This document shows, piece after piece, positions 1 through 63,948 of a DNA stretch of 64,000 nucleotides. This stretch comes from Chondrosia reniformis (Eukaryota > Porifera > Demospongiae > Chondrillida > Chondrillidae): assembly GCA_947172415.1 (NCBI GenBank), contig OX359199.1, positions 5,267,384 to 5,331,383 on the forward strand, given 5' to 3'. The position numbers were made by a program, and so were the translations under genes. Under the pieces are notes generated by a model. That model did not search any database. It had not been told where the DNA came from and saw only the letters and a program-made list of their open reading frames with translations. Positions within the stretch are counted from its first letter, which is position 1. Each line of letters begins with the position of its first letter.

Positions 1-56
1 AGGGTAGGACAAGGGACAGTCAAGGGTAGGACAAGGGACAGTCAAGGGCAGGACAA
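1..56. repeat. Short tandem repeat, 24-bp unit, cut by window edge
   Basis: About 2.3 copies of a unit containing AGGGTAGGACAAGGGACAGT, with the last copy changed to AGGGCAGGACAA. It starts at the window edge, so the array may continue outside. It lies downstream of the last visible SF3B1 exon, so is probably intronic. Confidence 0.8.
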
Positions 57-362
57 ATATGTGTAAGGTGTGACTAAAGAACAACTCATAGTACAGTTGG
101 CTCTAGTTAGGGTAAACAGAGCAATTGAATAGCATAGGGTGCAATCGCCATATAAAAGAGCTAACTCAAAGTGACACATCAGCACAACTTTTAACAATTA
201 TACATTTATTAATGTACTCATACATCAGTACATATGTAATTATTTATACAGTACATATACGTACGTATGTATGCAACACATTATATCAAAAAGGAAAATA
301 ACAAAAAAATAAAAATAGCATGTATTTACAGTGTTAGCATACTAACAAGGCTAAATACTTAC

Positions 363-880
363 ATTCCCTGTTCCTTGGAAATCTTTCAGAACATCAGATG
401 GCGCTGTGATGCTCTTTCCAGCGAGCTTTGATGAATAATCATCCTCTTCATCTTCATAATCTGTGGGTGGTATGGAGGTCAGGTATCCTTCGTAACGCCT
501 AGAGAGGAAAGAAGGCATTACAGAAGTCTCAGGAAACATATTTATGTACTCACTTTGAAGATGGTGCATCGTAAATTTCCGAGTCGAAATGACCTTCTGT
601 ACCTAGGCCAATCTGTAGGGTTACATTGGGCGATACGACTTCAAAGCAATAATAAACATATTTGGGACTTACCTGATCGCTTTTGGGTTCTTCTTGTGGC
701 TTAGCTCGCTTTTCTTGATACTCCCTTATTTGCGCGTCCAGTTCTATGTGCAAACAAAATGGTGCCCAAGTAAATTCTCATTAAAAGTACAATTCATTTG
801 TAACGTTAGCATAAATAATAGAAATGGGAGGAAAATAAGTATGTATTCTATCAGTTACCTTCTTGAGTGGTCGCTGCCAT
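363..880 (-). CDS. SF3B1: Splicing factor 3B subunit 1, N-terminal exons (partial)
   Basis: SF3B1 is the HEAT-repeat core of the U2 snRNP SF3b complex, which recognises the branch point in the nucleus. Four exons are visible: 880-859, 743-673, 612-554 and 498-363, all with GT-AG borders and matching phases. The joined peptide begins MAATTQEELDAQIREYQEK and continues with IGLGTEGHFDSEIYD and YEGYLTSIPPTDYEDE. This follows the human SF3B1 N-terminus (EDIEAQIREIQ, VGLDSTGYYDQEIY, FAGYVTSIAATELEDDDDDYSS) in the same order. This part is the disordered N-terminal region; the HEAT repeats would lie beyond position 1. The last donor (GTAAGT at 362) opens an intron running to the window edge. No further exon was seen in 1-350. 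Identity rests on remembered similarity but the order and spacing fit well. Confidence 0.88.
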
Positions 881-987
881 CGTTGAAGTACACTGAACGT
901 GACGAGCTCACGAAAAAATGGCAGTTCACATTAAACGTTGTATGTACGTAGTCCTAACGCAAACGCAGTAAGAGGGAAAATCCCTCT
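881..987. promoter_or_regulatory. Divergent promoter between SF3B1 and COX16
   Basis: Only 107 bp separate the SF3B1 start codon (880, minus) from the COX16 start codon (988, plus), so both core promoters and both 5' UTRs must fit here unless upstream non-coding exons exist. No TATA box was recognised. A shared bidirectional promoter is inferred from the spacing. Confidence 0.6.
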
Positions 988-1263
988 ATGATCGGAAGCA
1001 GAAGGTTCTTCAAATTTGGGCTCCCTCTCATTCTCTTTGTCGTGCTAGGCTCTTTCGGTCTATCCGAGTTCACCTCTCTTAGAGTGGAGAAAAGGGACGA
1101 AAAGAATCGCATGTTAACAGCCGAAGAAACATTAAAGTTTCAGAAAAAGGTACAAAAGGTCGAAATTGAACAAGAATTTGAAGACATTAAATCTAAGGTC
1201 AACATTGATCAGTGGGAGAATAAAAGAGGACCACGCCCTTGGGAGACCGATAGCAAGCCATGA
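988..1263 (+). CDS. COX16: Cytochrome c oxidase assembly protein COX16
   Basis: A 91-aa single-exon gene. COX16 is a small single-pass inner-membrane protein of mitochondria that helps assemble the copper centre of complex IV subunit COX2. A basic N-terminus (IGSRRFFKFG) is followed by one membrane segment at about residues 10-27 (LPLILFVVLGSFGLSEF), then a charged helix facing the intermembrane space. The hallmark GSFGLxEF and the C-terminal WENKRGPRPWE match human COX16 (GSFGLREF, WKNIRGPRPWE). The stop codon TGA overlaps the start of GTF2A2 (ATGA at 1260-1263), so both ORFs probably share one transcript. It is head-to-head with SF3B1 across 107 bp. Confidence 0.93.
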   Translation: MIGSRRFFKFGLPLILFVVLGSFGLSEFTSLRVEKRDEKNRMLTAEETLKFQKKVQKVEIEQEFEDIKSKVNIDQWENKRGPRPWETDSKP

Positions 1264-1592
1264 GTTATCAAATTTACCGCGAAACCACCCTAGGAACAAC
1301 TCTACAGGACACGGTCGACTATCTTGTGCAAACACAGCAAATTCCTCCTTCACTGGCAGCCAAGATCTACACCCAGTTCGACAAAAGCATGAGTGGAGCC
1401 TTTGATAAACATGCCCGTAACACGCGCATGACTTTCAAAGGGCAGCTGGACACATATCGCTACTGTGACAATGTTTGGACTTGCATACTGACAGACACGG
1501 AATTCAGAGAAAGTAGCGACATTTTGAAAACCTCAAAAATCAAAATAGTTGCCTGTGATGCTCGGGATGCCAGAGCCCCAGCCCCAGAATAA
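1260..1592 (+). CDS. GTF2A2: Transcription initiation factor IIA gamma subunit
   Basis: A 110-aa intronless ORF. TFIIA gamma pairs with TFIIA alpha/beta to stabilise TBP on the TATA region during RNA polymerase II initiation. The protein begins MSYQIYRETTLGTTLQDTVD (human [20 protein letters not shown]) and contains TYRYCDNVWTCIL and KIKIVACDARDA, matching the beta-barrel half of the family (TYRFCDNVWTFVL, KVKIVACDGKN). Length is normal (human 109 aa). The start ATG overlaps the COX16 stop by 4 nt and no separate promoter or splice acceptor is evident between the ORFs. The stop codon TAA lies inside an AATAAA at 1589-1594, so the 3' UTR must be very short. Confidence 0.94.
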   Translation: MSYQIYRETTLGTTLQDTVDYLVQTQQIPPSLAAKIYTQFDKSMSGAFDKHARNTRMTFKGQLDTYRYCDNVWTCILTDTEFRESSDILKTSKIKIVACDARDARAPAPE

Positions 1593-1594
1593 AC
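1589..1594 (+). terminator. Poly(A) signal overlapping the GTF2A2 stop codon
   Basis: AATAAA in which the TAA stop (1590-1592) is embedded. It is the only canonical hexamer close to the stop, and the convergent gene TUBG1 ends 82 bp further on. Confidence 0.65.

Positions 1595-1674: not shown

Positions 1675-1675
<1 letters not shown>
1670..1675 (-). terminator. Poly(A) signal overlapping the TUBG1 stop codon
   Basis: On the minus strand the stop TAA (1677-1675) runs straight into ATAAA, forming AATAAA that shares its first A with the stop codon. It mirrors the arrangement in GTF2A2 on the other strand. Confidence 0.65.
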
Positions 1676-5121
<3,446 letters not shown>

Positions 5122-5231
5122 TCTGCAGTACAACTTCTGTACACATGCACTGCAAATCTGCCGCTAATTAAAATATTCCTTGGATGCGCCCTTTATTAAT
5201 TGCAGCAGTCTTACTCTTTGATCACGGGGCA
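5122..5231. promoter_or_regulatory. Divergent promoter between TUBG1 and EHD
   Basis: 110 bp between the two start codons. No TATA motif was identified. A shared bidirectional promoter is inferred from spacing. Confidence 0.55.
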
Positions 5232-6902
5232 ATGTTCTCTTGGTTGAAGGGAGACGAAAGACGGCATAAGACGGTCGAGGTCTTTAATGATGTTGTAGAT
5301 GGAATTAAGAAATGTTACAAGCGTACTTTATTGCCCTTAGAGAAGAGTTACGAGTTTGGGCGGTTTCATTCGCCTTATTTGAGCGATGGAGACTTTGAGG
5401 CCAAGCCGATGGTGCTGCTCATTGGACAGTACTCGACTGGGAAGACCACGTTTATACGTTATCTTCTAGAGAGAGATTTCCCGGGCATTCGCATCGGTCC
5501 AGAGCCGACCACGGACCGATTTGTGGCCGTAATGCACGGACCTCACGAGCAAACGACTCCGGGAAACGCTCTCGCCCACGACCCTAGCAAGCAGTTTCGG
5601 GCCCTACAAACCTTTGGAAATGCCTTTCTGACACGCTTTGAGGCCTCGACCCTCCCATCTCCGGTTCTGGAGAGCATTACCTTGATTGACACCCCGGGTA
5701 TTCTATCGGGAGAGAAGCAGAGGTTGCAGAGGGGGTACAACTTTGAGGCTGTGATGGAGTGGTTTTCTGAAAGGGCTGACCGCATCATACTCCTCTTTGA
5801 TGCTCACAAATTGGATATATCTGATGAGTTCCGTAGAGTAATTGAGCTGATCCGTAAGAATCCGGAGAAGATTAGAATAGTGCTCAACAAAGCAGACATG
5901 ATTTCCACCCAGCAGCTAATGAGAGTGTACGGTGCCTTAATGTGGTCCTTGGGTAAGATAATGGGTACGCCTGAAGTAGTGCGTGTCTACATCGGGTCCT
6001 TTTGGGATAGACCATTGCATAACGATGAAAACCGCAAATTGTTTGAAGCAGAACAAGAAGACCTTTTTGCTGATATACAGAGTCTCCCTCGCACTGCTGC
6101 TGTTAGAAAGTTGAACGAATTGATTAAAAGAGCAAAACTAGCAAAGGTTCACGCCATTTTGTTGTCACATCTTCGTGGCGAGATGCCTTCCTTATTTGGA
6201 AAGCAGTCAAAGAAGGATCAGCTGATTTCTGATTTGCCATATGTCTTTAACTCACTCCACAAACGCAATGGTATCCCTGTTGGGGACTTTCCTCCAGTTA
6301 AGAAAATGCAGACACAGCTAGTGGAGTATGATTTTACAAAGTTTCAAAAGCTCCAACTGCACCAGATTGAGGCGGTGGACCGAATGCTTTCAGTAGACAT
6401 TATCAAATTAATGGAGATGCTGCCTAAAGAGGAAGCACTGGTCAAAGATGTTCGTATAAGGGGTGGAGCCTTTGGAGTAGGAGAAGACACTCTTGATCCA
6501 TTTTCCAAGGATTACACCATCTCCGCTGCAGCTCAAGGATCAGAGGGTTGGCTGATTAGCCAAGATATCGCCAAGTATGATGCCATGTTTCACAAAATTT
6601 GCCCTGATACTGAATCAAAAATTTCTGGAACTGCTGCTCGTGAGGAAATGATCAAATCCAAGCTGCCAAGCAGTGTCCTTAAACGTATTTGGAACCTAGC
6701 GGACATTGATAAAGATGGCATGCTTGATGGTGATGAATTTGCTGTGTGCATGTTTCTGATTGATCATAAAATTTCTGGGTATGATATCCCTGAGGTGCTT
6801 CCCAGTCACTTGATTCCTCCCTCAAAGAGAAGCAACCAGCTCTATGAACCAGAAGACGCAGGTACTGACTTTGGAGATGGACTTGGTTCTCACTTTAGTT
6901 AA
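5232..6902 (+). CDS. EHD1: EH-domain-containing ATPase (EHD1/EHD3-type)
   Basis: EHD proteins are dynamin-like, membrane-remodelling ATPases of endocytic recycling. This single exon encodes 556 aa (human EHD1 534). An N-terminal helical segment is followed by the P-loop GQYSTGKTT at residues 65-73, DTPGILSGEKQR, NKAD and the conserved VYGALMWSLGKI and SFW motifs. A second helical part leads to a C-terminal EH domain with the calcium loop DIDKDGMLDGDEF. The chosen start MFSWLKGDERR aligns with human MFSW. An in-frame ATG at 5184 would add 16 hydrophobic residues and is less likely. The linker before the EH domain is diverged. Invertebrates usually have one EHD gene, so assignment to a particular vertebrate paralogue is not meaningful. 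Absence of introns is notable among intron-rich neighbours. Confidence 0.95.
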   Translation: MFSWLKGDERRHKTVEVFNDVVDGIKKCYKRTLLPLEKSYEFGRFHSPYLSDGDFEAKPMVLLIGQYSTGKTTFIRYLLERDFPGIRIGPEPTTDRFVAVMHGPHEQTTPGNALAHDPSKQFRALQTFGNAFLTRFEASTLPSPVLESITLIDTPGILSGEKQRLQRGYNFEAVMEWFSERADRIILLFDAHKLDISDEFRRVIELIRKNPEKIRIVLNKADMISTQQLMRVYGALMWSLGKIMGTPEVVRVYIGSFWDRPLHNDENRKLFEAEQEDLFADIQSLPRTAAVRKLNELIKRAKLAKVHAILLSHLRGEMPSLFGKQSKKDQLISDLPYVFNSLHKRNGIPVGDFPPVKKMQTQLVEYDFTKFQKLQLHQIEAVDRMLSVDIIKLMEMLPKEEALVKDVRIRGGAFGVGEDTLDPFSKDYTISAAAQGSEGWLISQDIAKYDAMFHKICPDTESKISGTAAREEMIKSKLPSSVLKRIWNLADIDKDGMLDGDEFAVCMFLIDHKISGYDIPEVLPSHLIPPSKRSNQLYEPEDAGTDFGDGLGSHFS

Positions 6903-9718: not shown

Positions 9719-11146
9719 ATGGCTTCCGATGCGAGTTATAGAGATTTATTGCAAATCTATAAAACAAATGGTGGAGAAGAATTTATTCAAATGTTACTGA
9801 GAAATGGCGAAAATGTAAATAGAGAATACGAAGATGGGCAAACCCTTTTGCACCTTTTCGCTAATTTGGGGTCCTACAAGCTAGTTCAGTATTTGTGGGA
9901 CCACGGCGCCAAGCCGACCCTTCTTGGCATTGATAAGTCTAACGTTCTATTGTCCGCCGTTAGAGCAAAGGATAGTTCAGAAGATGAAGAGAGGGCGCAG
10001 ATTTTAGAATTGTTTCTGAAAGGTCAACGTGACAAGGAATGCGAAGAGCAATCGGAGGAAATTGACGTAAACCATCGAAACGAAAGAGGATGGACAGCTG
10101 TAAAGTTGGCTGCCCGCAAGAACCTGGAGAGATGTGTTGAAGTGCTAGTACAATACAACGCTGACCCAGACATAGCAGACAATGAAGACTACACCCCATT
10201 ACACAACAGCATTGACAACCCATCCATACTAAAGCTACTGGCTGTCAAGTGCGAGAACCTAAACAGGCGCAATCAGGCGGGAGAGACAGCATTGTACATG
10301 GCTTGCGATAGAGGTTCTGGAGCTGGTGCTTACATACTCCTGGAACAGGGGGCAGATCCTAATATTTCTGATAGAAGTGGTCAGAACACACCTGCCATAT
10401 CACATGACTTCAAGATCTGTATACATTAATTAAATGAGTGGTGGTTCAATCTTTTATTATGTAGGAGTAACTCCGCTCTTTCTAGCTTCTCGCAATGGAA
10501 ACGTTGATTTAGTGAAGGCACTAGTAAAGGCAGGGGCTAATGTGAATCACTTAGGAGGTACTCAAAATCTGGGACCTCTACACTGGGCAGCTCACAAGGA
10601 ATATACAGAAGTCGCTTTGTTCCTTATTGAGCACAAAGGAGACATCTTGCTGGAAGACAAAGAGGGGAGAACCCCCTTATCAATGGCATCTCCTGCCTTG
10701 GCTGAAAAGATGATTGGTGAGTTTTATACTCATTCCTCCAATAAGCAGTTAAATTTAATTATTTTGCTCATTAGAAATGACAAAAAGGAACAATCCTGAC
10801 TTTGCTGTGAATTTTCAACCTGGCATTTCTGGTGAGTGTTTGTTTGCAGCTTTCAAAAGACTGTCTTGTCGTGACCTGAGTGCCTACCTCCCCAGCCAAA
10901 GAGAAAGCCTTGGCTGCTTGTTGTGGCGGAAACCTTCAAGCCCTGGATTCTCTGCTGAAGAACAAGGAAATTCTTATTAACATGGTCTCAGGAAAGACTA
11001 AAGGATCTCTGTTGCATATGGCGGCCTACTGCGGACAGGTGAGGAGTGAAATCACTGTCTCTTATGGTGTATTCCTCTGTATGCATATACGTATGTGTGT
11101 GTATATGTGTGTGTACTGTATGTGTGTATATACGTATGTGTGTATA

Positions 11147-11185
<39 letters not shown>

Positions 11186-14100
11186 GCACCGAGTTCGGAG
11201 GTGGTGCATTATATTATAGTTCAAGTGAAATAAAGGATGAAGGGTGATTATGTGTGTGTACTGTATGTATTTATGTATCCACTGTAGATGAATATAGCAG
11301 CATATCTGGTGCACGAGGGGGCTGACTGTCTAGCCAGAGATACTGAGAATGACACTATACTACATTTTGCTTGCATGAAAGTAGTACCTCATGGCTCTCA
11401 TCTTTCCACAGTGGAGTTTCTACTTGTAACAAGTGCCATAAAAAGTATCAATTCCCGTAACAGCACTGGAGACACTCCTTTAATGGTGGCAGTGAGGTGT
11501 GGCTTTGCTGAGAGAGCAAAGGCCATCTTGAAGGCTGGGGCAGACCCTTTAATTGGTAACAACAAGAATGAACTTCCTTTGCATCGTGCATGTGGCAATG
11601 ACACACTATTGGAAGTGAGACATTTGATCCATTAATATCAGATGCTTGATATTTTAATAATGTAGCCATTTTGCTCATTCTTATACTATACAGTTGGTGA
11701 TGAGACTAGCTGAGGTAACCCCTGATATTAATGTACAGGATAAGGATGGGTGGAGTCCATTGATGTTTGCATGCAAATCAAAATGCAAGCTCACTGTTCA
11801 ATATTTGCTACAAAGAGGAGCAAATCCTTCTGCCAAGCAGGTACTGTTTGCATTATCCAGCTAAACATTTCTTATTATAGTTACCTGGGCTAGGGGTCGG
11901 CCATTTTAAATTTTCATGTCTAATAATGTTCCAATCCTCTTTAATTGTCTATAATGTTCCAATCCTCTTTAATTGTCTATAATGTTCCAATCCTCTTTAA
12001 TTGTCTATAATGTTCCAATCCTCTTTAATTGTCTATAATGTTTCAATCCTCTTTAATTGTCTATAATGTTCCAATCCTCTTTAATTGTCTATAATGTTCC
12101 AATCCTCTTTAATTGTCTATAATGTTCCAATCCTCTTTAATTGTCTATAATGTTCCAATCCTCTTTATTTGTCTATAATGTTTCAATCCTCTTTAATTGT
12201 CTATAATGTTCCAATCCTCTTTAATTGTCTATAATGTTCCAATCCTCTTTAATTGTCTATAATGTTCCAATCCTCTTTAAATGTCTAGGGTTCTGGGTTT
12301 TCAGCACTGTACTTAGCAGCCCAAGAGAATGCTCCTGAGATTTGTGCCTTACTTTTGGAATCTGGAGCAGACCCTAACGAGCAGGGAGGTCCTCAAAAGC
12401 TCAGTGCCCTGCACTTTGCAGCTCATTCCAATCACATGGCTGTTTGTTGTGTTCTGGTGGAGCACGGGGCAAACCCTCAATTGGAAGATGCTGATGGGGA
12501 CACTCCCATTTCCCTAGCTTCCCCTGAACTACATACTGCCTTGTTAAGTAAGTCTTCTATTATTTGTATACTCTTCTCCATAGAATACTTAAGAGATTTT
12601 GTTTTATTCTTCAGTTGCCCAAACAAAGTATTTGAACACACTTCGGCAAAGACAAAGAAATTCAACAGCCCAGAATGATCCTAGATTACGCCCACCAAAT
12701 GAATTAGAGGATTCTCCCCATAGTGAACTTAGTAATGATTCATCAAGAGAAGCTCAGAACAAGGAAACAGCTACAGGAGTGGATAAAACAGAGTCAGCCT
12801 TAGTGGAATCTCAGACGGCAATAGTAGGAAGTGATAACCTTGTAAAAGAAATAGAAGAGTTAAAATTTCATGTAAAAATGCTTGAGGAAGAAAGGCAGTC
12901 CCTTTTGAGTGAGATGCATAGCTCTCACCTAGCTACCAGCCATCCGACAGAGCCTGTAGCCTCAGGTTTAGACCAACTTCAAATTGAGTTCACCTTGAGA
13001 GACTATCAAACACTAAAGGTAGGAGCCTAGATTTAGTCACATGATAGGGGTATGACATTTACCTCTTCTGTGTAGAGGGAGAAGCTTGTATTCAGCAGTT
13101 CCTTTAAAGATGTCCATCTTGGTTGTTATCATGAGATGAATGTAACTGTAGTTGATGTGAAATGTAGTGAAAGCTTCAATAGTGGATTGACAGCCATTTT
13201 GTAAGTGTACTCCCTTCTATTATACATAAGTACATGTTAGGGAACAATATTATTATTTTGTGCGCACCAATCTACTAAAGGGAACAAAGGCCTGGGCCCT
13301 TATTCAAGGATATACAAAGGTCTGGGGCCTTATTCAAGGATATACACTTCTTTGATATGATCCAGGACATTTAAGAAGAATGTAGTGTAGTGATTTAGTT
13401 ACTTGATATCATACTAGTTACTGTATTTCTAATGTATTTTTAAAGTGCAGCATCTACTATATTCCTTTGTATCTTATGTAAATGTGAAGGAAGCTAAAGA
13501 GTCCCAACTTGGTGTCATGTCTCGGTATCTGTACTGACGAACCAGTTATCCACCTTGTGTGCGAGCCCATGCATTATGGTACTCTTAATTACTTCCTGAA
13601 GAATATGGATTTCCCCTTGGAATACTCTAAGCAGCTGTCTATTGTAAGCAGTCCTTGAGAAGAGTAGTTCCTTGTCTTTACTCTCCCCACCGCCCCTCAG
13701 GCTCTTGATGTGGCCTGTGGTCTGGCCTACCTTCATCGTCAAACAGTACCAATATTGTATCAGTACCTGCATACGACCAATGTGCTTGTCAACAGACATT
13801 TTGTGGCAAAGCTTTCACTGGAGGTTAGTGTCAGGCTGTCATGTGATGATCACATGTCACTTGTAATAACCTTGACATATAGGGTCTGCTGCAGCAGTCT
13901 GTGAAGAAAGGAAGTTCTGAATTTTCAAATGTCAGTTAATTTTACTATTTTTAATAAGGCTCAATTGATTATCCTCTTGTTCTACAGTTTTACTGTCCTC
14001 CAGAAATAATTGAAGGAACTTCCTCATTTTGTAAATCCTCTGATGTTTATATGTTTGGTAGGGATGGCTGTAGGGTGTGATTTGAAGCACATTAATCTCT

Positions 14101-14503: not shown

Positions 14504-17500
14504 TCACACAGTCGAAGAAACAGATCCCCTTCTTTGTACCATGACAAGTGATAAATAGGATTTGATCAACTTTGCAAGTTCATTCACCTAGCATATTTTA
14601 GGAAAGAAACAATTGAAATTGCAATAGTAATAGTCAATTACAAGTTTCTATAACCAGGATTAGAGAGTTGCTAGACTCTTGATTCATAACTGGTTATAAA
14701 AGCAGCTGCCAGGGTAGGTAGGTATGACTGACTATAGCTGCCATGTACTGTACATGATCAAATCTTGCTCAAACGACTATATATGTAATTGGCATATCAT
14801 AGAGCAAGGATTTCTTCCATGTAATTAGTACCTTGTTAGTTTCAAACAGCATTGCATCTTCACCAACTACAACTAATTTAAACTTATTCAGATAAGGACC
14901 ACCAAAGGATTCAATCCTACAAGGAAATTTAAAATATTGCACAATCACACATACGGACATACCCAATCACATTTAGTTTACTTACTCTTCATAAGGGATT
15001 ATTCTAATGGCTTTTGATTGGTTCTTTTCATAAATCTGAACACCAGTATAGCCAATAGCAAGCCAAATGTCGCTTGGAAGACGTTGATCTGATAGAACAT
15101 ACTACACAGACACATACATTAAGACATAATTAAATGGAGGAGAAACATTTAAGACTTGTAGTACAACTCTCATTCACTGAGCTGTATAACTACTTATCAG
15201 TTGACAAAAGATCCTTTGTACCTAAGGATTAGTAACAGCTATTTCACAACTCTGTAGTTGGACAAAGTTTTCACTTAAAAAACCCTTGTCCTTAAGGATT
15301 AGTAACTATGGAAACAGCTCTCTCACAACTCTGTAGCTGGACAAGGTTTTCACTTAAAAGCTATGTGTGAGTGCACCTTCACATCGTGTATGATGGAACC
15401 GAAGCCTTCCCAACTCTGGAGTATGTCCATGTACAGCTTCTGAGCTTCCTCTGATGGCAGCCCCTAGCACAGATAAACAGAATCTAAAAACAGCCTAATC
15501 AAGAGGGATTTACTCATACGTACTTGTAGTTTCTGCCACTGCTGAAGGATTAGAGACCTAACCTGGCCCATTTTAGCAGTTAAAGCCTCTTGTGAACGTT
15601 CTTCATCAGAGTATTCTATAAAAACATGGATTGGTTCAACTTATTTTGGTCGCCTCTTATACTAATTACAAAGCAAGTAATTAGACTCCATTTATACTAG
15701 TTAGTGGTGATTTCAATTTATCATGTCACACCTTTTCCCTTCAATCTGCTCAGAGTACCTCCTAGCCAGGTCTTACTGGCTCTACTAATGGACTCGTAGG
15801 TTTTAGTGATATTTTTGGCTCCAAGAAAGTCCTTCTGAGTCTCGGCTTCTTCCATCAGCTTTGTCCAGGGATAGAGTTGTCTCACGTCACTTCTACAGAA
15901 TGATATATAGGCATGGCTATAGAATGGTGTCCCCAAGTGACTCAACCCAACTTCTCACATTGAAGAGTGTTCCTGTGGATCATAGTCACTGTAGAGATAC
16001 TGTTGACGCAGAGCTCCCAGTTTTATTAGATTCTCTTCACTAGTTGGAAAGTGTCCTTCCAAAACTTGAGCACATCCCTACATGCATGGAAACGCGTTGG
16101 ACGATAGAATTTTACCTACGTAGTTTTAATTTGAGTCTAGGAAGAGTTTATCAGTCTAGTTGATTTATCTGTTTTCTTGCCTCATGCATATGCAAAAAAA
16201 TTTCAACATGCTACATCTATTCTAAAGTAAAAGGATATAGACCTAGCGAGCTTTGGAGGAGGATAAAAGAGTTTTCTTCTTCTCCACTGGGCCAGACAGC
16301 TGTTTCTGGGAATTCCACCCTTCATCAGCGACCCTGGGAGTCTTTGTTTTCTTTTTTGTTCTTTTGTGAGTCCTGGGTATATGTACTTTACATGCTTGGA
16401 CATACATATCCTTGCATTACATGCAATCGACAACCACACCTGTCTACTGTTGCATTACATGCAAACTGGTCATGAATCTACTAAGCAAACCTGTTCAAAT
16501 AGGAAGGTCCCTTCAATGCTATCTAAGGGAACTGCTGAGATACTTTTAAAACAGTGGATTTTAAAGAAGAGCCTCCATTTCTTAACAGTCTCCCCTTGCT
16601 GCTGCTGCTGCTGCTGCATCTCCTTTTGCTTCTCAAACTTGGCTAGCAAATCTGCCACACATGATCGGCCTTGAATGAATCTACTCTCTTCACCGCAAAC
16701 CTCAAACAGCCCAAACTTGTTGTGACTTGAACGGATTCCCAGGCCAAGCATTAAATTGTTGACAACCTGTAAATGAGAGGCAGGATTGCACAATAATGGC
16801 TTTACATTGCACAATTTAAAGCATGTAATAAACAACAGTGACACTGCACATATACGTACGTATACTTTATCTTACATCTTGGGCTGTTGTGGCAGAGTTT
16901 ACAGTAATTTTACACTCAGAATCTCCATAGGTATACACTACAGCAACCATTTCTCTGCATCCCTACAGTAGGTTACAGGAGAGAAAAATGACACAGAACT
17001 TACTTAGGAATAGAAGTGGGTAGAAGAGGGTGTAGGGGGCAGGGAAGGGAGGAGAGAGTGAAGGGAAGGGAGGAGAGAGTGAAGGGAAGGGAGGAGAGAG
17101 TGAAGGGAAGGGAGGAAGGGGGCAGGGAAGGGAGGAGAGAGTGAAGGGAAGGGAGGAGAGGGTGAAGGGAAGGGAGGAAGGGGGCAGGGAAGGGAGGAGA
17201 GAGTGAAGGGAAGGGAGGAGAGGGTGAAGGGAAGGGAGGAAGGGGGCAGGGAAGGGAGGAGAGAGTGAAGGGAAGGGAGGAGAGGGTGAAGGGAAGGGAG
17301 GAAGGGGGCAGGGAAGGGAGGAGAGGGTGAAGGGAAGGGAGGAAGGGGGCAGGGAAGGGAGGAGAGAGTGAAGGGAAGGGAGGAGAGGGTGAAGGGAAGG
17401 GAGGAAGGGGGCAGGGAAGGGAGGAGAGGGTGAAGGGAAGGGAGGAAGGGGGCAGGGAAGGGAGGAGAGGGTGAAGGGAAGGGAGGAGAGGGTGAAGGGA

Positions 17501-20500
17501 AGGGAGGAAGGGGGCAGGTCAATGAGAGAGACCAGAACAGCCTGAGAGGATCAACACAACACCAACCAGACAAGCAATGATTTCATTTCTTGAAGGGGGG
17601 TATTCCCTTTGCTTCGTTCTCTTCATATTCAACTGACAATATTGTGCAAACTTGGCTATCTCAGTGCCAGGGTATCTCAAGAGAGTTCTACAAATCCAGA
17701 AATACAAATACACATACATTCATGAATTAAGTACGTATATGATATGTTGTAACTCTCACTTTTTGATGTGCATGGTCAAATATCGTTGAATAGCTCTTTC
17801 TGGAATAAATGCACAAACCATACAAGCTAGTAGCTGCCAGGCACTGATTACCAGCTGGCTGTCCATGTCTGCCTCCTTTATAATGGCAGTCTGTTTTATC
17901 AACTGACAAAACACCTGCAAACAGAATATCAATTGTATTTCAGTGGGGACCCTTCTGTCAATGGTCCAACGTCCAGCCCACTTCTGGCAGCCATCTTAAG
18001 GGGCAAAAGTAATGGTGGTCTGTCAGTTTAAGTCAAAGAGCTCAATATTCTAAACTGTTAATCAGGAATTCTGGCCAATCATATAAATTCAAGTATGGTT
18101 GTAATGATAACAATTCAAATATTATATTTGATTGACCAGGTTCTGGAACCTAATGTATTTTTATTAAAAATTCCAGACCAGCTCTTTGCATGAAAATGGC
18201 AGACAGAAGATTTGGACCGGAAATGGGACTATGATCAGAAGAGATTAAAGATTTGATGTCCAACCTCTGATCTGAGATCCTGGAGGTCAAAACAGCTACC
18301 CAGGATGCTCTGGGCAGTCGGGATAGGATCTGTTAGAGCTCCCTGGCTCAACAGCTTAGTAAATATGTTGACAGCTTCAATGTGAAGGTTCTTGTATTCC
18401 CTGTACTTTTCCTTTGGTAAATTAGGTTTACCATATGGAAGGGCCAATAGGGGAGCCTTAATTGGAACTTTAGTGTGAGCCAGAATTGGATGAGCATCAT
18501 AAACTTTATCCCAATCTGGTTTGCGGGATTTCTGGGGAGACAATAAAGGAAGCATTTTGAATGGGTTTGTGTTGTGTGTATAGAAACTGCTCACAATAAG
18601 TGACAAAATAAGTCTCTCCGTCAATGTCTGTATTGGCTGGGAGCTGTCAATGGCATCTTGTAGAGCTATAATCCACTTGTTAGCTTCATCTAAATTCTTT
18701 GTACTCAACTCATGGATGTGTCTCCTTGCATGCAGCCTGATCGTGTAGTAACCAGATTCCTTGAACTCAGTTTCATTCAATGGATCAATTGAGCAGAGAC
18801 TATCCATAGGAAAAAGCAAGTGAAAAAACAAGAGAACGGTCTTACAAGAATAATTACCAGTTAAGAGTGATGGTCCCTGCTGAAGCCTCATTTGTGTCCT
18901 CGGAACGATAATATGTTAGCCCCTTCTCCGTTAGCACAAAGAACCTGCGACGTCTAATCCTACCTTCCTTCATCAGCCATCCTGGAGGGTGTGGTCGGAG
19001 GAGGGATCATAATTGAGCCCAACGTATAGTACCCATATATGGCTTAAAAACACAGTACCTTTCTCCAGCCAATCTTCCCTCTGCTGGCTCTCAAAGGCAG
19101 ACATTTTTCTTGGAGAGAGGGCACTAATCCATTTATGCATCACGTGTGGGTCATCAGCCACAAAATTATACACTCGATTGGCAGTTATCACGGCAAAGGC
19201 ATTTGGCCTATCAATACACAGAGCATAATCAGTATCACATGGGGATCATGTGATGGTCACATGATAGTCACACGGTGCCTACTTCTTTGGATTATTGATG
19301 GCCTGCACAGCTTCTATATCAGTTAAATAAATCGTTCCTATGGCATTCCTTGGATCAACTTCACTCTCCATCAAGCTGCGAATCTTCTTCTCAGACATGC
19401 TTCTGACAAACTTTAGTAACTCCAGCCACTCCCTAGAAGTCAGAATCAGGTATAGAGTTGAAGCAGGTGGAGTTACGTAGATCAAAGGCATGCAGCAAAG
19501 AGACAAATGCCTACTTTTTCTCTGCCGCACTGTTGGCTTTTAGCTGGAATGTCTTAGATGGAGTCACAATACCGAAACTGTGCTCACGAGAGGTTACTTC
19601 CTCAATTATGTCACTGAAGAAAGCATGGTTACCTAGGTGACCATACAGTTACCATGGTTACATTGCAAGACCATCACTTACGTAACATTTGCAATCTCAA
19701 CTATTCCCGAGTATTTTGTAGCATCTTCAATGGCATCTCTTTCGTAATAGCAGAGAGTTCGGTTGGGGTACATCACAAAGTACCTCTGTTTCCAGCTCCT
19801 CCTAAGAAACAAGAGAGAGAGAGAGGAGTCACTACCACTTGCCACAGGTGACAAGGTAGCCCTGTACCTGCTGAGAGTTCCACTTCCTCCCCCCTTCTTC
19901 CAAAGCCAGCCTTGTTTCAGAGCCTCCTACAATACCAGATGACATATTCACAACACACTCATGACATTAGTAGTAGCTTACCTGTTTCCCATGGAAAAAC
20001 ATGAAAGTCTCCTCCTTAATGATACACCATCTTCTTTTCCATCCTTGGTGTTTCATTGACAGGAAACCTTCAACAAAAAGCTCTTCACCACTCCAGAACA
20101 GGTCTGAGCCTGTCTCCACAAAGGTCTTTCTTCTTGTCTCATCTTCTTCCTCGGTGACAACAATCTCTTCGAGGTCCTCCTCTGGCTCCTCTTCCCATTC
20201 TGGTTCATCTGGTTTATTAACCATCATCTCCTCAAGCTCCAATTCTAAGATCTCTGCTAGTGCAGCCACCTCCTCTTCAGCCTCCCGACGAGCCCTCTCT
20301 TCATAAGCTTCCTGTTCCTGAACTGCTTTCTCTCTACGAGCCACTTCCTCTTGAGCAATACGCTCCTCTTCTTCATGTTGCCTAGCAACCAAAGCACAAC
20401 AGTAGTAGTATAGCTAGCACTATGTTATTCCATCAACTTTCTTACTTTTGCTCTTCAATTAATCTTAACTCCTCCTGCTTCTCCTGAGGATGACACAAAT

Positions 20501-28997: not shown

Positions 28998-30300
28998 TAC
29001 CCATTGGACATTTTCTATAGATGTCTGTGAATGCTGACACAAAGTATTAGCTTCATATCTCACCATTTGATGGAGTGACAGCCCTCAATGACTATTAAAT
29101 TCTTGTATACAAAGTTAATGTATGGTGAGAGATAGGGCAAATTTTAAGTTTCATCAAAATTGCAAAAACCCATTGGACATGTTTTATAGATATCTGTGAA
29201 TGCTGACACAAAGATGTAGCTTCATATCTCTCCATTTGAAGGAGTGACAGCCCTCAATGACTATTAAATTCTTGTATACAAAGTTAATGTATGGTGAGAG
29301 ATAGGACAAATTTTAGTTCCACCAAAATTTCAAAATCTCATTGGACATGCTCCATAAATGTTTGTGAATGCTGACACAAAGTATTAGCTTCATATCTCAC
29401 CATTTGATAGAGTTACAGCCCTCAATGTACATTAAATTCTTGTATACAAAGTTAATGTATGGTGAGATATAGGGCAAATTTTAAGTTTCATCAAAATTGC
29501 AAAAACCCATTGGACATGTTTTATAGATATCTGTGAATGCTGACACAAAGATGTAGCTTCATATCTCTCCATTTGAAGGAGTGACAGCCCTCAATGACTA
29601 TTAAATTCTTGTATACAAAGTTAATGTATGGTGAGAGATAGGGCAAATTTTAAGTTTCATCAAAATTTCAAAACCCCATTAGACATGTTTTATAGATATC
29701 TGTGAATGCTGACACAAAGTATTAGCTTCATATCTCACCATTTGAAGGAGTAACAGCCCTCAATGACTATTAAATTCTTGTATACAAAGTTAATGTATGG
29801 TGAGAGATAGGACAAATTTTAGTTCCACCAAAATTTCAAAATCTCATTGGACATGCTCCATAAATGTTTGTGAATGCTGACACAAAGTATTAGCTTCATA
29901 TCTCACCATTTGATAGAGTTACAGCCCTCAATGTACATTAAATTCTTGTATACAAAGTTAATGTATGGTGAGATATAGGGCAAATTTTAAGTTTCATCAA
30001 AATTGCAAAAACCCATTGGACATGTTTTATAGATATCTGTGAATGCTGACACAAAGATGTAGCTTCATATCTCTCCATTTGAAGGAGTGACAGCCCTCAA
30101 TGACTATTAAATTCTTGTATACAAAGTTAATGTATGGTGAGAGATAGGGCAAATTTTAAGTTTCATCAAAATTACAAACCCCATTAGACATATTCTATAG
30201 ATGTCTATGAATGATGACACAAAGTATAAGCTTCATATCTCTCCATTTGATAGAGTTACAGCTCTCAATGTACATTCAATTCTGGCATACAAAGTTAATG
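28998..30300 (-). repeat. Satellite family B, left flank (inverted relative to core)
   Basis: About eight monomers of 168-171 bp, each starting near CCCATTGGACATGTTTTATA and containing GTGAATGCTGACACAAAG and GTTAATGTATGGTGAGAGAT. Reverse-complemented, they align with the core monomer but are clearly diverged. A 505-bp three-monomer higher-order unit recurs (29337 and 29842). Confidence 0.92.
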
Positions 30301-30568
30301 TACGTATCTCTCACCATACATTAAATTTGTATAGCAGAATCTAATGTACATTTAGTGCTGTAACTCTGTCAATTGGAAAGATGTGAAGCTGAAACTTGCT
30401 GTCAGCATTCACAGACATCCATAAAACATATCCAAAGAGTTTTACAAATTTTGATGATCACTCATATTTGCCCTACGTATATCTCACCATACTTTAAATT
30501 TGTATACAAGAATCTAATCTACATTTAGTGCCGTAACTCTGTCAATTGGAAAGATATGAAGCTGAAAC

Positions 30569-51500: not shown

Positions 51501-54163
51501 AAAGATGTGAAGCTGAAACTTGCTGTCAGCATTCACAGACATCCATAAAATATATCCAAAGAGTTTTACAAATTTTGATGTTCTCTCATATTTGCCCTAT
51601 CTCTCATCATACATTAAATTTGTATAGCAGAATCTATTGTACATTTAGTGCTGTAACTCTGTCAATTAGAAAGATGTGAAGCTGAAACTTGGTGTTGGCA
51701 TTCACAGACATACATAAAGCATATCCAAAGAGTTTTACAAATTTTGATGTTCACTCACATTTGCCCTATCTCTCACCATACATTAAATTTGTATGCATTC
51801 TAGAATCTAATGTACATTTAGTGCTGTAACTCTGTCAATTGGAAAGATGTGAAGCTGAAACTTGCTGTCAGCATTCACAGACATCCATAAAACATATCCA
51901 AAGAGTTTTACAAATTTTGATGTTCACTCATATTTGCCCTATCTCTCACCATACATTAAATTTGTATACAAGAATCTAATGTACATAACTCTGTCCATTG
52001 GAAAGATGTGGAGCTGAAACTTGTTGTCAGCATTCACAGATATCCTTAAAGCATATCCAAAGAGTTTTACAAATTTTGATGTTCACTCATATTTGCCCTA
52101 TATCTCACCATACAATAAATTTGTATAGCAGAATCTAATGCACATTTAGTGCTGTAACTCTGTCAATGGGAAAGATGTGGAGCTGAAACTTGTTGTCAGC
52201 ATTCACAGACATCCTTAAAGCATATCCAAAGAGTTTTACAAATTTTGATGTTCACTCATATTTGCCCTATCTCTCACCATACATTAAATTTGTATAGCAG
52301 AATCTAATGTACATTTAGTGCTGTAACTCTGTCAATTAGAAAGATGTGAAGCTGAAACTTGGTGTTGGCATTCACAGACATACATAAAGCATATCCAAAG
52401 AGTTTTACAAATTTTGATGTTCACTCACATTTGCCCTATCTCTCACCATACATTAAATTTGTATGCATTCTAGAATCTAATGTACATTTAGTGCTGTAAC
52501 TCTGTCAATTGGAAAGATGTGAAGCTGAAACTTGCTGTCAGCATTCACAGACATCCATAAAATATATCCAAAGAGTTTTACAAATTTTGATGTTCTCTCA
52601 TATTTGCCCTATCTCTCATCATACATTAAATTTGTATAGCAGAATCTAATGTACATTTAGTGCTGTAACTCTGTCAATTAGAAAGATGTGAAGCTGAAAC
52701 TTGGTGTTGGCATTCACAGACATACATAAAGCATATCCAAAGAGTTTTACAAATTTTGATGTTCACTCACATTTGCCCTATCTCTCACCATACATTAAAT
52801 TTGTATGCATTCTAGAATCTAATGTACATTTAGTGCTGTAACTCTGTCAATTGGAAAGATGTGAAGCTGAAACTTGCTGTCAGCATTCACAGATATCCAT
52901 AAAACATATCCAAAGAGTTTTACAAATTTTGATGTTCACTCATATTTGCCCTATCTCTCACCATACATTAAATTTGTATAGCAGAATCTAATGTACATTT
53001 AGTGCTGTAACTCTGTCAATTAGAAAGATGTGAAGCTGAAACTTGGTGTTGGCATTCACAGACATACATAAAGCATATCCAAAGAGTTTTACAAATTTTG
53101 ATGTTCACTCACATTTGCCCTATCTCTCACCATACATTAAATTTGTATGCATTCTAGAATCTAATGTACATTTAGTGCTGTAACTCTGTCAATTGGAAAG
53201 ATGTGAAGCTGAAACTTGCTGTCAGCATTCACAGACATCCATAAAATATATCCAAAGAGTTTTACAAATTTTGATGTTCTCTCATATTTGCCCTATCTCT
53301 CATCATACATTAAATTTGTATAGCAGAATCTATTGTACATTTAGTGCTGTAACTCTGTCAATTAGAAAGATGTGAAGCTGAAACTTGGTGTTGGCATTCA
53401 CAGACATACATAAAGCATATCCAAAGAGTTTTACAAATTTTGATGTTCACTCACATTTGCCCTATCTCTCACCATACATTAAATTTGTATGCATTCTAGA
53501 ATCTAATGTACATTTAGTGCTGTAACTCTGTCAATTGGAAAGATGTGAAGCTGAAACTTGCTGTCAGCATTCACAGACATCCATAAAATATATCCAAAGA
53601 GTTTTACAAATTTTGATGTTCTCTCATATTTGCCCTATCTCTCACCATACATTAAATTTGTATAGCAGAATCTATTGTACATTTAGTGCTGTAACTCTGT
53701 CAATTGGAAAGATGTGAAGCTGAAACTTCCTGTCAGCATTCACAGATATCCTTAAAGCATATCCAAAGAGTTTTGCAAATTTTGATGTTCACTCATATTT
53801 GCCCTATCTCTCACCATACGTACATTAAATTTGTATAGCAGAATCTATTGTACATTTAGTGCTGTAACTCTGTCAATTGGAAAGATGTGAAGCTGAAACT
53901 GTCTGTCAGCATTCACAGACATACATAAAGCATATCCAAAGAGTTTTGCAAATTTTGATGTTCACACATATATGCCCTATCTCTCACCATACATTAAATT
54001 TGTATACAAGAATCTAATGTACATTTAGTGCTGTAACTCTGTCAATTGGAAAGATGTGAAGCTGAAACTTGTTGTCAGCATTCACAGACATCCTTAAAGC
54101 ATATCCAAAGAGTTTTACAAATTTTGATGTTCACTCATATTTGCCCTATCTCTCACCATACGT

Positions 54164-54985
54164 ATGGTGAGAGATAGGGCAAATTTTAAGTTTCATCAAA
54201 ATTTGAAAAACCCATTGGACATGTTTTATAGATATCTGTGAATGCTGACACAAAGTATTAGCTTTATATCTCACCATTTGATGGAGTGACAGCCCTCAAT
54301 GACTATTAAATTCTTGTATACAAAGTTAATGTATGGTGAGAGATAGGGCAAATTTTAAGTTTCATCAAAATTTCAAAAACCCATTGGACATGTTTTATAG
54401 ATATCTGTGAATGCTGACACAAAGTATTAGCTTCATATCTCACCATTTAATGGAGTGACAGCCCTCAATGTACATTAAATTCTGGCATACAAAGTTAATG
54501 TATGGTGAGAGATAAGGCAAATTTTAAGTTTCATCAAAATTTCAAAAACCCATTGGACATGCTCTATAGATGTCTGTTAATGCTGACACAAAGATGTAGC
54601 TTCATATCTCACCATTTGAAGGAGTGACAGCCCTCAATGACTATTAAATTCTTGTATACAAAGTTAATGTTTGGTGAGAGATAGGGCAAATTTTAAGTTT
54701 CATCAAAATTTCAAAAACCCATTGGACATGTTTTATAGATATCTGTGAATGCTGACACAAAGTATTAGCTTCATATCTCTCCATTTGATGGAGTGACAGC
54801 CCTCAATGTACATTAAATTCTGGAATACAAAGGTAATGTATGGTGAGAGATAGGGCAAATTTTAAGTTTCATCAAAGTTTCAAAAACCCATTGGACATGC
54901 TCTATAGATGTCTGTGAATGCTGACACAAAGTATTAGCTTCATATCTCTCCATTTGATAGAGTTACAGAACTACAGTTAGACTGT
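54164..54985 (-). repeat. Satellite family B, right flank (inverted relative to core)
   Basis: About five monomers of 169-171 bp of the same family as the left flank (CCCATTGGACATG, GCTGACACAAAG, GTGACAGCCCTCAATG). The junction with the core is a perfect palindrome centred at 54163/54164. Confidence 0.92.
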
Positions 54986-56165: not shown

Positions 56166-56463
56166 CAAAGGTGCCAGTGTTTAGAGCAAAAAGTGACTTA
56201 AGCACCCGCAGGCGGCATAGGACAGTTGGCAGACACCTGGACCCCTTAACTGTCAGTATGGGGCTTGCTGGTGCTTAGAGCAAAAAGTGACTTAAGCACC
56301 GGCAAGCTTATAAGATGGGCGTAGGACAATTGGCAGACACCTGGACCCCTTTAACTGTCCGTTTGGGGCTTGCCGGTGCTTAGAGCAAAAAGTGACTTAA
56401 GCACCGGCAAGCTTAAAAGATGGGCGTAGGGCAGTTGGCAGACACCTGGATCCCCTTAACTGT
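56166..56463. repeat. Three tandem units of about 105 bp with hairpin core
   Basis: Each unit contains GTGCTTAGAGCAAAAAGTGA followed by CTTAAGCAC and then GGCAGACACCTGGAYCCC and TTAACTGTC. In the third, TTGCCGGTGCTTA pairs perfectly with TAAGCACCGGCAA around a 15-nt loop. The second has one mismatch or wobble, and the first is more diverged. It ends about 290 bp upstream of the UTP6 start codon. Confidence 0.9.
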
Positions 56464-56753
56464 CAGTCTCTTTCCGTTCCCTTTTGCCATTCACTGAGCC
56501 AAAGAAATAACTAAGGTGTTCTATAACGTATTGTTTTATTATGGCTACTTTAACACAGCTATAAGCTGGTGCTTATCGATGTACCGTTATACTTGTATTA
56601 TATTTATATAAAAGTAATATAATTCTTGACGGTGCTGAACCACACTTGAATCTCACTTTGTTGAGCCCTTTTTTGTGTACCGGTACGGTAGCGGCACTTG
56701 AACGCAATACGTTCCGTTACCGTTACCGGTACTCTAGACACTGCATAATAAAA

Positions 56754-62231: not shown

Positions 62232-63948
62232 TCAAAGTTGGGACATTGAATTGCGACATCGCTTGCATATGGGCTTATGAACCTTTGGTAGTCGCCATGG
62301 CAACACAGCAGTCAGCCTTAAACATGTAGTGCATGCCAGATTCCCACAGTTGGAACAGGTCAACTACAGAAAAAGGTTATCCATACATACACATGTCTAC
62401 ATACACATGTCTACAGACACATGTCTACATACACATGTCTACAGACACATGTCTACATACACATGTCTACAGACACATGTCTACAGACACATGTCTACAG
62501 ACACATGTCTACAGACACATGTCTACATACACATGTCTACAGACACATGTCTACAGACACATGTCTACAGACACATGTCTACATACACATGTCTACATAC
62601 ACATGTCTACATACACTGTAGTCCATGCATCCTTACTCGTCTGTTTGTCAGGGAAAAGGCTTGTTTGCATACACATTGCTCAGTACAACGCGGAACAGTA
62701 AACTGTATTGGAATGGGGTAAACCTCTCTCATTAAAGGAGTGGGAGGAGTGTCTGCTTCCAGGGACTGTTTCAGCTCAGTCAAAGTCTACCAAAGAGTCA
62801 AAATACAGTTCCAAGGTTGTCATGACAACCTTGTACTACAGGTATATGCCTACTTGCTGGAGGTAGTCGCAATGATCCTCAAGAGCTTCATCGTACTGAC
62901 ACAGACCAGTAATGACATCCTCAATGTTCTCATTCAGCAAGGGAGCAGAATGAAATTGGCAATACATGTCCCTCCATAATCTAAAGGAGTTAATAGAGCT
63001 CATACTGTGTCTAGTGAATGAGAAGGGTTTAATCAGAAACACACTGCAGCTCTGCTAGAAAGGATACTCACTTGAACTGTCTAATGTCAGTTGAAGGAAA
63101 TATAAATTCTGAAGAATTTGGATCATACAAAGGATCACGAAACTCGGCTTCTTTGCTATACATGTAATTCCAAATTGAACTAGTTTTCTCTGATAGTCTA
63201 CATACAAACAAATAAGTTACCTTGACAACAGTGAATATACAAACATAATTATACACACATATATATACATACTGCAGTATTTTACGTTCCCTTTCACAAT
63301 TTCCCAAAAATGTTCCGAACTGTACATTTTAATAAGAATAGAATACAGTGAAATGGACAACAGATTGTAGCAAAATTTGTGCCTTACCTGACATGAATTT
63401 ACATGTTCCTGCAGGATAAGTAGAAAATGTGTGTTAAATTGAAAGGCAGTTGGATATTGCTGTTTAATCTGCCAAACACATTCTAGAAATTGTAAAAACA
63501 CAGGAGAAACATCTTTTCCTCCATCATTAGTTGCTAAATGACCATGTCTGCCAGAAAATTTGTGCCCAAACGATAACCACTCTCGCTCAATCAAAATCTA
63601 CATACCAAATATGGAAACTGAGGCATGCAAGCAATAGCTATGTAAGACAGTTCAGCCTACCATAAAGCCGTGTAGAGTTCTATAGTAAGGGTCAACTATA
63701 AGCTCTGCAATAGAGCAGGTCTGTGAGGTTCTATCCCAGCCATCAGAACAGTGCACAATGACACTTTTACCTTCAATAACCAGAGCCTAGGTTTGAAGAA
63801 AAGGCATCAGTTATATTCATTTGTTTTCCTACAGCAGTTCATACCCTGGCTAGGAAAGTTGATGCTTCAAGGATTGCTCTGATGTGCTGAAACCAGTTAG
63901 ATGACTCCAACAATGAGTAATAGGTAGACATCTTCTTGCTCTCTGCAG
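62232..63948 (-). CDS. Myotubularin-family phosphatase with C-terminal FYVE domain (5' partial)
   Basis: Myotubularins remove the 3-phosphate from PI3P and PI(3,5)P2 on endosomes. Eight exons are visible: about 63948-63845, 63786-63661, 63597-63388, 63319-63273, 63197-63072, 62980-62854, 62786-62637 and 62363-62232; the PH-GRAM and early catalytic parts lie beyond 64000. The active-site loop HCSDGWDRT is intact (Cys and Arg present), so it should be active. SWLSFGHKF-like [40 protein letters not shown] and LWRDMYCQF resemble the MTMR6/7/8 group. The last two exons encode [17 protein letters not shown] joined to [14 protein letters not shown] and KPICKRC, an FYVE-type zinc-finger pattern that human MTMR6-8 lack. 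Its stop is 27 bp from the convergent UTP6 stop. Confidence 0.88.
62385..62617. repeat. 14-bp minisatellite in myotubularin gene intron
   Basis: About 16 copies of ATACACATGTCTAC / AGACACATGTCTAC, lying between the two exons that encode the FYVE finger. It leaves all plus-strand frames open, which produces spurious Thr/His-rich ORFs. Confidence 0.95.

Follow-up and report, generated by a model that had tools for sequence, protein, structure and literature searches.

RESULTS

COX16 and GTF2A2 overlap by four nucleotides

Are two unrelated nuclear genes of the sponge Chondrosia reniformis, COX16 and GTF2A2, read from one mRNA, and if so, how do ribosomes reach the second? The question arises from the window (the whole stretch of 64,000 nucleotides analyzed), in which the COX16 ORF (positions 988 to 1263, plus strand; 91 amino acids, single exon, ATG at 988, TGA at 1261 to 1263) runs into the ORF of GTF2A2 (TFIIA gamma; 1260 to 1592, plus strand; 110 amino acids, single exon, ATG at 1260, TAA at 1590 to 1592). 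The stop codon of the former and the start codon of the latter share the letters ATGA at 1260 to 1263, with GTF2A2 in the −1 frame with respect to COX16. The initial annotation had claimed this 4-nt overlap as well as two full-length, unrelated genes on the same strand, and both claims are borne out. The COX16 product matches the whole Pfam profile PF14138 (1 to 79 of 79; E = 2.7e-30), both the N- and the C-terminal domains of TFIIA gamma (PF02268 and PF02751; E of about 3e-19 each) are found in the GTF2A2 ORF, and a search of the PDB aligned the latter from residue 1 with TFIIA subunit 2 (E = 3e-35). Of the 91 COX16 residues, the domain extends to residue 86, and so the overlap costs it nothing. 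The locus thus has one of the features expected of an animal bicistronic gene, namely, two separate ORFs, each with a recognizable protein product; the other would be a mature mRNA that carries both.

Several trivial origins of this arrangement were considered. Chance ORFs are ruled out by the full-length family matches. A retrocopy with a parent elsewhere is ruled out by the single match of each protein in the genome (117,379,552 bases, 15 contigs; E up to 0.001 and up to 10), with the qualification that the genome was read exon by exon and a copy split into very short exons might escape. Sequencing error is unlikely because the published primary assembly has a QV of 69.8 (PMC12181767) and both ORFs are intact. 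A frameshift or readthrough fusion is ruled out by a TAG at 1251 in the GTF2A2 frame; indeed, the two frames are jointly open only over 1254 to 1260, and not over a slip site, as a frameshift fusion would require. A structured RNA element was rejected as well, since no Rfam family matches the window at the gathering score and the junction shows no unusual fold. No relatives of GTF2A2 were found among 28 candidate stretches in prokaryote genome contigs and 16 in viral contigs, nor any of COX16 among 101 and 24 such stretches, respectively; because these collections comprise prokaryote genomes and viruses, the scans say little on sponges.

The pair lies between close neighbors and carries no intron

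Upstream lies the 5′ part of SF3B1 (1 to 880, minus strand, start at 880, cut by the window edge), identified by a match between its joined exons and splicing factor 3B subunit 1 (E = 1.7e-11). Its start codon is separated from that of COX16 by 107 bp (881 to 987), presumably a two-way promoter shared by both genes. Downstream follows, in convergent orientation, the gamma-tubulin gene TUBG1 (1675 to 5121, minus strand; E = 3.6e-43), the stop codon of which ends at 1675, 82 bp from the GTF2A2 stop. A gene of the EHD family (5172 to 6899, plus strand), which is one open frame with EHD_N, Dynamin_N, and EH domains (Pfam), is arranged head to head with gamma-tubulin (start at 5121) and makes a second tight two-way pair within 5 kb.

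In the first 5.1 kb, 11 GT-AG introns could be placed in SF3B1 and gamma-tubulin, 4 of which are only 55 to 61 nt long; neither COX16 nor GTF2A2 requires any. For C. reniformis as a whole, a mean of 7.20 exons per transcript has been published (PMC12181767). Because both ORFs are intronless, no exon junction lies downstream of the COX16 stop, and this agrees with the decay-immune layout that has been argued for polycistronic mRNAs (PMC3951408).

Poly(A) signals point to a spanning mRNA

The initial annotation saw no poly(A) signal between the two genes. We sought 13 hexamers, a set that may not be the one used by this sponge, and from the COX16 stop to position 1587 only one of them occurs, the weak GATAAA at 1404; to this extent the claim stands. 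It has to be qualified for COX16 itself, which contains, ahead of its stop, AATAAA at 1219 to 1224 (plus strand), ATTAAA at both 1131 and 1186, and a further two weak variants. Being located 5′ of the stop codon, the AATAAA at 1219 is unusable for a complete COX16 mRNA. The next strong hexamer is the AATAAA at 1588 to 1593 (plus strand), which sits on the GTF2A2 stop and is the probable shared poly(A) signal; AATATA follows at 1613. Therefore, any COX16 mRNA with an intact stop codon must enter GTF2A2 and would most likely cross it. This gap in hexamers is the strongest argument for a spanning COX16-GTF2A2 mRNA, whose existence we regard as very likely, whereas the translation of GTF2A2 from such an mRNA is a separate matter. 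Given how tightly the two ORFs are packed, with stop and start overlapping, a common mRNA probably serves both proteins.

Start codons and AUG pattern

How might ribosomes arrive at the second ORF? The COX16 start has a weak context (T at −3, A at +4), and that of the GTF2A2 start is better (G at −3, A at +4). Under a rule that calls for A or G at −3 and G after the AUG (PMC11291117), borrowed here and not derived for this sponge, a weak ORF1 start is thus followed by a stronger ORF2 start, as leaky scanning demands. The sole AUG between the two starts (1111 to 1113, plus strand) is in frame with COX16 and weak as well (C at −3, T at +4). Out-of-frame ATGs are absent from this stretch, compared to 1.55 expected from synonymous resampling (P = 0.106). 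Control windows (36 of 270 nt from putative host exons) had a mean of 3.9 and none had zero; they derive from 10 open stretches chosen by eye from 36 listed, 2 of which (at window positions 5171 and 9664) were confirmed by Pfam as gene families.

Relative to expectation by composition, the ratio of observed to expected ATGs in the COX16 ORF is 0.40 with the start included (2 versus 5.06; P = 0.120) and 0.20 with the start excluded (P = 0.042). It is 0.36 over 945 to 1259 (P = 0.081) and 0.58 over 881 to 1259 (P = 0.188), and reaches 1.51 in the GTF2A2 ORF. With P values of 0.04 to 0.19 at one locus, the shortage of AUGs before GTF2A2 is only suggestive.

Two further AUGs lie upstream of COX16. 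One opens a possible uORF of 17 codons (918 to 971, plus strand) in a strong context (A at −3, G at +4), which would interfere if the transcript began upstream of 918 and so included it. The other, at 942, has a weak context and would likewise require a transcript that begins upstream of it. Given the 107-bp gap shared with SF3B1, a transcription start downstream of 942 seems likelier.

Close ORF pairs and small mitochondrial genes in the genome

Same-strand ORF pairs in which the second start lies −8 to +20 from the first stop were counted in a sample of 298,227 bases from 32 sequences of this genome, among them the window and L003, which overlaps the window by 1 kb. With ORFs of at least 80 amino acids there were 3 such pairs, compared to 0 in 6 dinucleotide shuffles; at a minimum of 60 amino acids, there were 12, compared to a shuffle mean of 3.0. 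Besides COX16-GTF2A2, the longer class contains a frame overlap within a single long open stretch of L015 and a pair of ankyrin-repeat ORFs (9719 to 10429 and 10434 to 10799, plus strand). The latter are separated by TAA plus 4 nt and probably belong to a single gene broken by a stop codon, if they are not another close pair.

Family searches for small mitochondrial proteins led to 11 loci, at 3 of which (L024, L030, and L032) the match lies in an ATG-initiated ORF of at least 60 amino acids that looks single exon. No family-like ORF adjoins the stop codon at any of these three, a 62-amino-acid ORF overlapping L030 having been dismissed by eye. Apparently single-exon small mitochondrial genes of this sponge without such a partner speak against the bicistronic leaky-scanning model.

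Other features of the window are repeats. A large satellite array, built from units of about 169 bp, occupies 31289 to 54161 (about 134 copies in the main block), with related copies at 28999 to 30302 and 54162 to 54968. A direct repeat of 105 bp is present in 2.4 copies at 56214 to 56467, and minisatellites are found at 11917 to 12287 (unit of 28 bp), 17034 to 17518 (about 62 or 103 bp), and 62384 to 62616 (14 bp).

DISCUSSION

A model for the expression of COX16 and GTF2A2

The best explanation for the locus is a compact, intronless bicistronic unit in which GTF2A2 is reached by leaky scanning, a reading to which we give about even chances. In our model, transcription would begin in the 107-bp gap common to SF3B1, and the transcript would end downstream of the AATAAA that overlaps the GTF2A2 stop. 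Ribosomes that accept the poor COX16 start while scanning would make COX16; those that pass it would meet one weak, in-frame AUG and then the better GTF2A2 start, where they would make GTF2A2. Of the two modes of translation that the initial annotation had offered for one common mRNA, leaky scanning fits the locus anatomy best (weak COX16 start, AUG pattern, better GTF2A2 start) and we infer that it is the main route to GTF2A2, while the common mRNA itself is well supported, if indirectly, by the lack of strong hexamers between the COX16 stop and 1588. Reinitiation, the other mode, has little in its favor beyond the overlap.

Reinitiation coupled to termination at AUGA, which is known from bacteria, caliciviruses, and a small number of cellular mRNAs, is improbable. 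AUGA is indeed among the geometries listed for it (PMC5972666), and reinitiation on bicistronic mRNAs can be induced in yeast even where cis-elements are lacking (PMC11952965). Features of the TURBS type, in which an upstream structure would present UGGGA for pairing with 18S rRNA, were found in part: UGGGA occurs at 1213 and 1240, 47 and 20 nt upstream of the overlap, but both copies are Trp-Glu codons of the COX16 domain, and the RNA from 1180 to 1280 folds no better than its shuffles (z = −0.07). Moreover, in one measured cellular case the output of ORF2 was about 82-fold below that of ORF1 (PMC5972666). Another possibility, to which the initial annotation had pointed as its alternative, is that GTF2A2 is made mainly from an mRNA of its own, with a promoter inside COX16, and that the long mRNA serves COX16 only. 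In flies, where the 3′ gene also has monocistronic transcripts, these usually stem from a promoter that is downstream or external (PMC4528330), and COX16 would still require the common 3′ end; the promoter would, however, have to fit within about 272 coding nucleotides, and we consider this arrangement unlikely, though a serious contender. From the other side, only 45 of the 159 dicistronic loci of flies appear exclusively dicistronic (PMC4528330), which counts against the bicistronic model.

Splicing offers two more ways to GTF2A2. A candidate alternative intron of 81 nt at 968 to 1048 (plus strand; donor GCA/GTAAGA, acceptor TGCTAG/GCT), a route that the initial annotation had not seen, would remove the COX16 start from some transcripts, which would then serve GTF2A2. 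With a model built from the 11 local introns, the acceptor at 1048 obtains a score of 9.1; a score of at least 8 is reached by 23 of 4092 plus-strand AGs of the window, and 3 of the 11 real acceptors outscore it when left out of the model. For the donor at 968 the score is 5.7, above that of 3 of the 11 real donors. Furthermore, splices disrupting one of two cistrons are reported in FlyBase (PMC4528330). Against this stands that the pyrimidine tract before 1048 also encodes the hydrophobic segment of COX16 and may therefore be incidental, that the donor is carried only by transcripts starting upstream of 968, and that the splice model comprises 11 introns, with candidates scored by the full model and real sites by leave-one-out. 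(Twelve exon junctions were tried, of which one gave no intron and was dropped; for one intron the acceptor was chosen between two, the alternative putting a stop codon in the join.) Such an intron is an unlikely source of GTF2A2 but, like the internal promoter, a serious contender. The absence of a good splice acceptor between the genes, as claimed originally, applies to the surroundings of the junction, where the best candidate ends at 1253 and scores −1.5 (1 of the 11 real acceptors is lower), but not to the interior of COX16 with its acceptor at 1048. The same values bear on spliced-leader trans-splicing, by which a two-gene precursor would be resolved as in nematode operons. A leader of about 37 bp has been reported for a glass sponge, and the authors suggest that trans-splicing is ancestral in animals (PMC10282587); a good acceptor is available at 1048. 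That acceptor, though, is 211 nt upstream of the GTF2A2 start, and the one at 1253 is poor; predicted leaders were present on only 4% of the glass-sponge long reads (PMC10282587), and no demosponge case was among the matches listed in our literature search. Trans-splicing is thus highly improbable here.

Comparison with known bicistronic and overlapping genes

That a stop/start geometry of this kind is rare in animals, as initially stated, is too strong. FlyBase holds 159 dicistronic pairs, as well as 18 pairs that share coding sequence in different frames (PMC4528330), and overlaps of stop and start are also found at some algal loci (PMC11291117). Like the Drosophila loci, the sponge pair consists of two unrelated ORFs of animal nuclear genes with a small first ORF, and its spacing falls within the −34 to 319 nt between stop and start that are reported for exclusively polycistronic fly loci (PMC4528330). 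Unlike them, it is predicted from genomic sequence, and other genes and another phylum are concerned. Leaky scanning has been described for stoned and Snapin of Drosophila (cited second-hand in PMC11291117). In the bicistrons of green algae, it is supported by mutation; there, ORF1 has median lengths of 291 and 357 nt, and the medians of observed over expected ATGs before ORF2 are 0.49 and 0.43 (PMC11291117). The sponge locus resembles them in its short ORF1 (276 nt), weak ORF1 start, and few AUGs before ORF2; the difference is that the sponge case is one locus read from its letters.

Two animal cases involve comparable partners. The human RPP14/HsHTD2 bicistronic mRNA also joins a nuclear RNA-related and a mitochondrial protein, but the order is reversed, with the mitochondrial protein second, the genes are different, and the spanning mRNA of the sponge is only predicted (PMC4705651). 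In helminths, COX16 is annotated beside an unrelated domain in a merged COX16-PTH2 gene model; there, 416 bp separate the domains and the authors judge the annotation an error, in contrast to the sponge ORFs, each of which has its own start and stop (PMC12964723). Among the matches listed in the literature search there was no bicistronic COX16 or GTF2A2 and no sponge nuclear bicistron, which is not proof of absence. To our knowledge, ribosome recruitment of the bacterial style is not expected in the cytoplasm of animals. The likeness of the ATGA to the 4-nt overlaps of bacterial and archaeal stop/start pairs (PMC6728339, PMC10666635) is likely a matter of convergent packing.

What the overlap would mean

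In sum, bicistronic and overlapping animal loci are uncommon but already known, and the sponge pair probably adds a case to that range; being one locus, it leaves the general picture unchanged. If the spanning mRNA exists, the sponges, an early-branching animal phylum, would have a clear case of a nuclear bicistronic gene, with two easily recognized core products. The locus would also provide a simple test system in which leaky scanning can be set against bacterial-style reinitiation for touching ORFs in animals. A further step, which we hold to be rather improbable, is that this sponge lineage has no source of GTF2A2 other than the bicistronic mRNA with COX16, which would make the two genes an obligate unit. 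If so, the stringency of start codon selection would set how much respiratory-chain assembly factor is made relative to a general transcription factor and thereby link respiration with nuclear transcription.
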